Assembly (NCBI GenBank): GCA_905221615.1
Contig: CAJNDT010003535.1
Location: 186,001 to 250,000, forward strand
DNA from: Symbiodinium sp. CCMP2592
Taxonomy: Eukaryota; Sar; Dinophyceae; Suessiales; Symbiodiniaceae
Direction: 5' to 3'
Length of the DNA: 64,000 nucleotides
A program made the position numbers and the translations under genes. Below, piece by piece: positions 40,082 to 61,777 of this stretch. A model generated the notes under the pieces. The model saw only the letters and a program-made list of their open reading frames with translations, ran no database searches and had not been told where the DNA came from. Each line of letters begins with the position of its first letter. Position 1 is the first letter of the stretch.

Positions 40082-40148
40082 GAGTTGGAGAGCTTGAAGC
40101 TCCCCGCGGACGCCACGCACGTTGCGCTGCTGAAGGCTTTTGGTCTGG
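40082..40148 (+). CDS. ATPase exon 1 (N domain)
   Basis: Acceptor CAG|G at the end of the family B2 MITE. The frame ELESLKLPADATHVALLKAF matches the N-domain signature GD(A/P)TExALL, with His for Glu. The proposed donor is GGTCTGG|GTGAAG, phase 1. Confidence 0.6.

Positions 40149-61777: not shown

Follow-up and report, generated by a model that had tools for sequence, protein, structure and literature searches.

A P2-type ATPase gene of Symbiodinium with many tiny exons, telomere-like arrays oriented beside its splice sites, and altered ion-site residues

The splicing pattern described here is closest to that known from other Symbiodiniaceae. According to the available part of PMC4083563, Symbiodinium genes have about 19.6 exons each, GC donors are nearly as common as GT, and a G often follows the acceptor AG; the accessible portion of PMC11453091 gives GC or GA donors at 25-74% in Symbiodiniaceae, and TTTAGGG as the dinoflagellate telomere repeat; and introners with terminal inverted repeats carrying the 3′ splice site are known in Symbiodinium microadriaticum from the available part of PMC9860276. 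For the encoded protein, the points of reference are SERCA, in which E309, N768, E771, N796, T799, D800, and E908 are Ca2+-binding positions (available part of PMC3997511), and the gastric H+,K+-ATPase, in which a Lys of M5 (K791, beside N792) blocks cation site I and is linked to the release of protons (accessible text of PMC6706254).

Architecture of the gene and its surroundings

The window analyzed here is a 64,000-nt stretch of DNA from Symbiodinium sp. CCMP2592, bases 186001-250000 of a 715,723-bp contig (C3535) in an assembly of 1.098 Gb and 5,383 contigs; its GC content is about 50%. A P2-type ATPase gene of at least 46 exons could be joined on the plus strand from window position 2608 to a TGA stop at C3535:271706, 21.7 kb past the right edge of the window, giving a span of 83,099 nt (83.1 kb). 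The 46 exons total 2,345 nt and encode 780 amino acids in a single frame, without internal stop and with a stop codon at the end; they range from 21 to 82 nt (median 52.5 nt), the median intron is 925 nt, and the largest intron is 33.2 kb (3477-36649). Breviolum (formerly Symbiodinium) minutum likewise has GC and GA donors beside GT, a G after AG, and about 20 exons per gene (available part of PMC4083563), but the C3535 ATPase gene differs from that pattern in its at least 46 exons, its 33-kb intron, and the oriented telomere-like arrays beside its splice sites. The architecture is thus extreme, yet of a kind typical for dinoflagellates. The exons that lie within the window, and the largest intron, are as follows.

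2608..2672, plus strand, exon SVWEAKGNPTEA, N domain (donor GC; profile-guided spliced alignment)
3425..3476, plus strand, exon AIKSAAAKGGYSEDADA (donor GT)
3477..36649, plus strand, intron of 33.2 kb with sparse heptamers and several long ORFs
36650..36690, plus strand, exon RELRQSHPRIPEL (donor GA)
38209..38268, plus strand, exon EVPFNNVRKMAVTVHKLPAT (donor GC)
40082..40135, plus strand, exon ELESLKLPADATHVALLK (donor GC; acceptor CAG right after the inverted-repeat element 39947-40078)
40653..40702, plus strand, exon GAPERLAACLGSLPVL (donor GC)
41874..41922, plus strand, exon DGALHIPGRPMVSSDQ (donor GC)
43098..43136, plus strand, exon VLLQRRNAELAGE (donor GT)
45180..45214, plus strand, exon ALRSVLLAARP (donor GA)
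46175..46232, plus strand, exon LTDVDVAALEKAAGADDRLE (donor GC)
47420..47451, plus strand, exon VLLQEKAMLC (donor GT)
48444..48525, plus strand, exon with DPPR (donor GC)
49361..49433, plus strand, exon with MITGD (donor GC)
49683..49746, plus strand, exon GEESLKYTALCSQLHDAGATR (donor GA)
50864..50937, plus strand, exon RTCFRERRISRRASEILAQGEVAPT (donor GT)
51549..51574, plus strand, exon GAQAQAEAE, 26 nt (donor GC)
52924..52983, plus strand, exon AWLHPTGSRRLSIHDSRGLQ (donor GC)
54486..54549, plus strand, exon DGHEPSFLSEEGISSLVRRTR (donor GC)
55343..55381, plus strand, exon CFARACPSDKVAI (donor GC)
56088..56146, plus strand, exon with GDGVND (donor GT)
57002..57041, plus strand, exon with APAL (donor GC)
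57395..57427, plus strand, exon GITGTAVTQNA (donor GT)
58080..58136, plus strand, exon with DDNFSTIV (donor GC)
58624..58687, plus strand, exon at the start of M5, Lys at the SERCA N768 position (donor GT)
61165..61243, plus strand, exon EMVSLMISIALGVVVPLKPTLQLLNLA, M5-M6 (donor GT)
61719..61781, plus strand, exon VTHVLCTVSYAFEEAEDYIMK, M6, His at the SERCA D800 position (donor GC)
62507..62564, plus strand, exon VPPRDAKTSMVLTRPLLLL (donor GC)
62849..62890, plus strand, exon RWLPFVLYFPAVVY (donor GC; 18 further exons follow, to C3535:271706)

The original prediction of a P2-type ATPase gene spliced from tiny exons is borne out, since the exons, their order, their phase, and the surrounding heptamer arrays are all present; its limits for the gene, 40082..61777, are not, since exons run from 2608 to 21.7 kb beyond the window and the last exon of that span ends at 61781. 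Four exons lie to the left of the span (2608-2672, 3425-3476, 36650-36690, and 38209-38268) and 20 more from 62507 rightward. The exons are indeed tiny, but instead of at least 18 there are 22 between 40082 and 61781 and 46 in the recovered gene; the 22 measure 26-82 nt, so that the predicted upper size of 82 nt (the longest of the 22) holds and the lower size of 27 nt does not; and coding DNA in the span is low, as proposed, but comes to 1,194 nt or 5.50% rather than about 4-5 percent. All 22 join into one stop-free frame, as expected from the claim that phase is kept across the junctions. To call the gene shredded is misleading, the recovered part being without any break. The motifs GAPE, DPPR, MITGD, GDGVND, APAL, and DDNFSTI stand on the plus strand where they had been placed, whereas the supposed NLVT is NLAVTH. 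Array orientation, a gene length of at least 83 kb, and cation-site residues unlike those of known P2 pumps formed no part of the original prediction.

The recovered protein starts in the N domain, at about residue 460 of its relatives, and DKTGT is absent from the six-frame translation of the window; the exons that encode the A domain, M1-M4, and DKTGT are expected 5′ of the window.

Donors of the 45 introns are GC in 25, GT in 13, and GA in 7, and acceptors are AG in 45/45, counts which are constrained because the aligner could choose among GT, GC, and GA alone for the donor and was tied to AG for the acceptor; the base following the AG was unconstrained and is G in 42/45. GC and GA donors beside GT, together with a G after AG, are the marks of dinoflagellate spliceosomal introns.

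Several features of the neighboring DNA deserve mention in their own right. The 33.2-kb intron (3477-36649) is nearly free of heptamers and holds several ORFs of 150-623 aa, eight of which gave no convincing Pfam match, as well as long tandem repeats at 17.8-19.8 kb and 25.0-25.6 kb; mobile DNA may have inserted there, or a further gene may be nested in it. Long CTA/CTG-type trinucleotide arrays lie inside introns at 41384-41611 and 46237-46355. Past the ATPase stop, from about 271.8 kb of C3535, there are further islands flanked by C- and G-strand arrays, which suggests that a second gene built in this way follows; Pfam gave no credible match in three frames of the 8 kb after the ATPase gene. 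Intron-free P-type ATPase ORFs of 629-823 aa are found elsewhere in the assembly, on a 2.96-Mb contig (C5051) that looks bacterial (a contaminant or a symbiont).

Order and frame of the exons

Exons 5′ of 41874 were located by spliced alignment with a profile of relatives, and those from 41874 onward by spliced alignment guided by the database protein P0002 (the first 35 exons, then the gene end). P0002 has 663 residues and is encoded on a 2,028-nt contig; a second database protein, P0001, has 662 residues and comes from contigs of which the longest is 3,844 nt. Both align to the joined protein without gaps, at 646/663 identical residues (97.4%) for P0002 and 629/662 for P0001. The 2,028-nt contig leaves no room for introns, and its genomic counterpart holds about 44 kb of them; P0002 must therefore represent spliced RNA, either directly or through a copy, and its source is the same gene or a very close one. 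The P0001 reading frame covers 662 residues even though its longest contig, 3,844 nt, could hold a whole 1,200-aa protein; an interruption of the frame farther upstream, or a chimeric contig, may be the reason.

Could the exon chain have arisen by chance? The 22 exons in their true order reach 578.7 bits against an HMM from which P0001 and P0002 had been left out, and 300 shuffled orders average 172.6 bits (sd 22.5) with a maximum of 257.2; shuffling of the exon order had been proposed beforehand as a check on the gene, which it passes. Of five wrong-frame or reverse-strand controls, four did not appear among the listed matches and the fifth scored -5.9 bits. Profile alignment of window positions 1-43000 scored 155.5 (on a path that still included a small exon at 11963-11990, later dropped) against 51.7 for the reverse strand and 36.8 for the reversed profile, and one run gave 222.5 against 68.0 and 54.0. 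With order, frame, strand, and reversed-sequence controls all far lower, we reject a chance origin.

Two variants of the exon map were discarded: the bridging exon at 11963-11990, since a direct join of 3425-3476 to 36650-36690 keeps the frame, and spliced alignments at low intron cost, which were obvious over-fitting. A 228-aa draft protein assembled by eye served as the query for the database and solved-structure searches; its stretch near 52.1 kb and the residues before FARACPSDK were not borne out later, and the corrected protein was used for the family models and for the residue alignment below. Analyses of 38 introns, the comparison of the 87 arrays with exons, and the count of complementary 10-mers took the exon at 38209 to end at 38276 (final end 38268).

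The pump and its ion site

The joined protein scores above the Pfam cut-offs for PF13246 (45.5 against 21.7), PF00702 (42.4 against 26.4), and PF00689 (63.1 against 27.3), the first two by a profile search that had been suggested with the original prediction, and above the cut-off of the general P-type model TIGR01494 of NCBIfam (150.7 against 62.3 bits). KGAPE, DPPR, TGD, and GDGVND follow one another in one frame, as is characteristic of the P2 class, and the same catalytic motifs occur in the same order in SERCA (P2A). None of the ion-specific NCBIfam models passed among those listed: the SERCA model TIGR01116 gave 206.9 for the partial protein and 339.1 for its relative P0003 (1195 aa), against a cut-off of 703.4, and the P2C model TIGR01106 gave 216.9 for the partial protein against 946.1.

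In a tree of 60 rows (quick method, midpoint root), the protein and 38 relatives form one group with SH-aLRT support of 100. The nearest neighbor group in this midpoint-rooted tree is ATP4 (Besnoitia ATP4 and 9n10), with three ATP4-like rows adjoining the group, and the protein itself is not among the ATP4 rows. The best solved-structure match of the draft protein was likewise 9n10, labeled as a non-SERCA-type Ca2+-transporting P-ATPase, which we take to be PfATP4. Matched relatives include Effrenium voratum, Durusdinium, and Symbiodinium; these names, the splice-site type, and the TTTAGGG repeats all point to a dinoflagellate. Every group member with a named organism or a taxid is a dinoflagellate, among them an MMETSP row of Gymnodinium catenatum. 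We found no description of this type of pump in the literature searched.

Residues were compared, in SERCA numbering, in an alignment of 41 group proteins with 73 others, from which P0018, P0022, and P0023 (of the first 44 matches) and P0045, P0056, and P0092 (of the rest) were left out as shorter than 850 aa; P0001, P0002, and P0006, though also below that length, were retained. The SERCA letters are those generally given for the compared positions. The catalytic core is conserved: D351, K352, T353, D601, R604, D627, D703, N706, and D707 are identical in all rows having the column; among the relatives, D351, K352, and T353 are present in 39/39 and E183 in the 36/36 with that column; and K515 differs in 2/39 group proteins.

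The ion site is another matter. Position 768 is Lys in 41/41 group proteins and Asn in 73/73 others; 800 is His in 41/41 and Asp in 71/73; 309 is His in 35/36 group proteins with the column and Glu in 72/73 others; and 796 is Leu, Met, Ile, Val, or Thr in 41/41 and Asn in 73/73. E771 is kept in 40/41 group proteins, and E908 in the 39/39 with the column (55 Gln and 18 Glu in the others). The window gene has K, E, L, T, H, and E at 768, 771, 796, 799, 800, and 908, the His of its NLAVTH replacing the usual Asp of NLVTD; position 309 falls outside its recovered part, and the His there is known from full-length relatives. Compared with the Ca2+ site of SERCA, then, the group has four of seven side chains replaced (E309H, N768K, N796 mostly to L or M, and D800H) and three kept in nearly all members, so that the full set of Ca2+-binding side chains is not there. 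The ATP4 rows, in contrast, keep Glu309, Asn768, Asn796, and Asp800, where the pump group has His, Lys, mostly Leu or Met, and His.

These same residues could be read as damage in a decaying pseudogene. The DKTGT part was not found within the window, and the near-identical P0001 and P0002 each start from an internal Met, both as a pseudogene might have it; but the 46 exons form one open frame, identity to P0002 is 97.4% without a gap, the phosphorylation-domain columns are identical across the group where present, and the altered residues are common to nearly all 41 group proteins. We consider a pseudogene very improbable.

The group therefore appears to combine a conserved catalytic core with rewired ion-site residues, a combination that, on the aligned sequences, looks new. 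A group protein is probably not a calcium pump, Ca2+ transport being unlikely with such a site. Because a Lys and two His (one of them seen in full-length relatives only) replace the Ca2+-binding side chains of SERCA, we tentatively suggest, at somewhat less than an even chance, a putative active pump that moves not Ca2+ but a monovalent ion, with protons the likeliest. The gastric H+,K+-ATPase (P2C) offers a partial parallel in that both have an M5 Lys next to the ion site; the group Lys is one position off the gastric K791, at the N792/N768 position, given an alignment of the gastric pump to N768 that is in part presumed.

Orientation of the telomere-like arrays

TTTAGGG-like heptamers are dense along the gene and rare in the 33-kb intron, and none of the 87 arrays overlaps an exon (0/87). 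They are not those of a telomere: the window lies at 186-250 kb of the 715,723-bp contig, and the arrays are short and interstitial. Their orientation follows the splice sites. Within 150 nt of a splice site in the 45 introns, 49/56 arrays are concordant (G strand after a donor, C strand before an acceptor), with 20 G-strand and 5 C-strand arrays after donors, 29 C-strand and 2 G-strand arrays before acceptors, and thus 7/56 pointing the wrong way; elsewhere there are 37 C-strand and 20 G-strand arrays. Examples, and two of the exceptions, are listed here.

2584..2596, minus strand, C-strand (CCCTAAA) array before acceptor
36558..36620, minus strand, C-strand arrays, 29 nt ahead of acceptor
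36710..36759, plus strand, G-strand array, 19 nt past donor
40153..40326, plus strand, G-strand arrays after donor
40758..40823, plus strand, G-strand array after donor
41925..41984, plus strand, G-strand array, 2 nt into intron
45247..45307, minus strand, exception: C-strand array 32 nt past donor
47522..47630, plus strand, G-strand arrays after donor
48379..48388, plus strand, exception: short G-strand array 55 nt ahead of acceptor
49464..49527, plus strand, G-strand array after donor
49754..49791, plus strand, G-strand array after donor
53087..53128, plus strand, G-strand array after donor
54328..54421, minus strand, C-strand array before acceptor
55969..56070, minus strand, C-strand array, 17 nt ahead of acceptor
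56817..56955, minus strand, C-strand array before acceptor
57999..58030, minus strand, C-strand array before acceptor
58445..58562, minus strand, C-strand array before acceptor
58730..58756, plus strand, G-strand array after donor
61082..61133, minus strand, C-strand array before acceptor

The pattern was spotted by eye before it was tested, and was tested in the C3535 ATPase gene alone. Concordance of 49/56 was reached by 0/100,000 label shuffles, which take the arrays as independent where neighboring arrays are not, and the observed concordance by 0/2,000 circular shifts of the exon map (38 introns). Seven introns added later show 12/13 arrays concordant, a partial hold-out only, as the array positions had already been listed. 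Coverage tells the same story in 39 introns of at least 400 nt: the first 200 nt are 6.8% G strand and 1.2% C strand, the last 200 nt are 13.6% C strand and 0.5% G strand, and the interiors are 0.5% G and 1.2% C (1.2% and 2.4% in the 38 introns without the 33-kb one). Array-free intron ends have a weaker skew of the same sign, 0.115 on 24 donor sides and -0.114 on 23 acceptor sides.

Acceptors also lie in stretches poor in AGG: the previous AGG is a median of 92 nt upstream, against a median AGG spacing of 24 nt inside introns, and the scarcity persists after G-strand array words are removed (38 introns). Because AGG is scarce upstream of acceptors, we read the orientation as a filter for compatibility with splicing: arrays would expand within introns, and those close to a splice site would survive mostly where splicing tolerates their orientation, a reading to which we give slightly better than even chances. 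The C strand, CCCTAAA, has no AG, is C-rich, and offers branch-like words (CTAAA/CTAAC), and so would fit well just ahead of an acceptor. TTTAGGG, the G strand, would present a repeated decoy acceptor (TAG|GG) and be excluded from that position, but would suit the intron start, where G runs, on general grounds, may aid donor recognition. Such a filter explains the acceptor side directly and the donor-side G bias weakly.

The arrays could instead be remnants of intron creation: if introners with telomere-like terminal inverted repeats had been inserted into exons, each intron would have begun with G and ended with C. Introners of the S. microadriaticum kind (available part of PMC9860276) make this conceivable, as do the inverted-repeat elements common in the locus (of 114 pairs, 25 are listed), which occur in several introns, one of them, 39947-40078, ending directly at an acceptor (CAG, then exon 40082). 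The heptamer arrays, unlike introners, are not at fixed element ends: G arrays within 300 nt start anywhere from 3 to 272 nt from the donor. Nor are the intron ends coupled: with 10-base words, 17 of the 45 introns have G on the donor side within 150 nt, 21 have C on the acceptor side, and 5 have both, and 9-base words give a table of 6/12/15/12, for which Fisher's p is 0.22. This lack of coupling speaks against a single insertion bringing both arrays, and we regard creation of the introns by such elements as distinctly unlikely. Apart from this question, the element at 39947-40078 (CTTGGAGGGTCGGGGGACTTAGTAA...), just before the CAG of exon 40082, resembles an introner carrying its own 3′ splice site, and similar elements lie at 36328-36463 and 41700-41839.

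Telomerase adds TTTAGGG onto 3′ ends, and healed breaks within introns, once rejoined, would read G then C. TTTAGGG is indeed the dinoflagellate telomere repeat (accessible portion of PMC11453091), and within an intron G arrays tend to precede C arrays, with the reverse order also in several introns. Break healing, however, predicts G-C pairs anywhere in an intron and no particular link to splice sites. What is seen is a clustering of arrays in the 200 nt next to splice sites, each strand on its matching side, with the G and C ends of introns uncoupled; break healing seems to us a little less likely still than the introners.

Base-pairing in RNA between the 5′ G and 3′ C arrays of one intron, which would bring its splice sites together, we also hold to be very unlikely. 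Complementary 10-mers are about 3 times as frequent when 5′ ends are compared with 3′ ends of other introns (3.5) as when 5′ ends (1.0) or 3′ ends (1.1) are compared among themselves, but a 10-mer is shared by the ends of the same intron in 28% of cases against 31% for different introns (32 introns), and ends flanking one exon match as often (32%). With 28% against 31%, and so no excess complementarity, same-intron pairing was rejected as the main cause.

Taken as a whole, the best explanation, and one we think probable, is that the C3535 ATPase is a real spliced dinoflagellate P2-type ATPase gene, with arrays that may have been filtered for orientation by splicing and a pump that may be changed in its ion. 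Rather doubtful, by comparison, is a reading in which the heptamers are strand-coded intron boundary elements genome-wide (G for start, C for end) and the P2 ATPase group, with its Lys and His, pumps a different ion. We found no description of interstitial telomere-like arrays oriented at splice sites in the literature on dinoflagellate introns and telomere repeats, of which few subscription papers were covered, and the word interstitial is absent from the available text of PMC11508785; array orientation at splice sites looks new, as judged from the sequence of a single gene.

The pump group can be regarded as a natural experiment on ion change, in which the core was kept and four ion-site side chains were replaced in nearly every member. 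If the arrays are boundary elements, one repeat in two orientations would furnish G runs beside donors as well as branch-like tracts lacking AG before acceptors, and the sites of hidden exons and the strand that is read could be predicted from array orientation by itself. Should orientation mark introns genome-wide, it would allow gene finding from sequence only where exons are too short for ORF searches, and telomere-type DNA would have been shaped by splicing.
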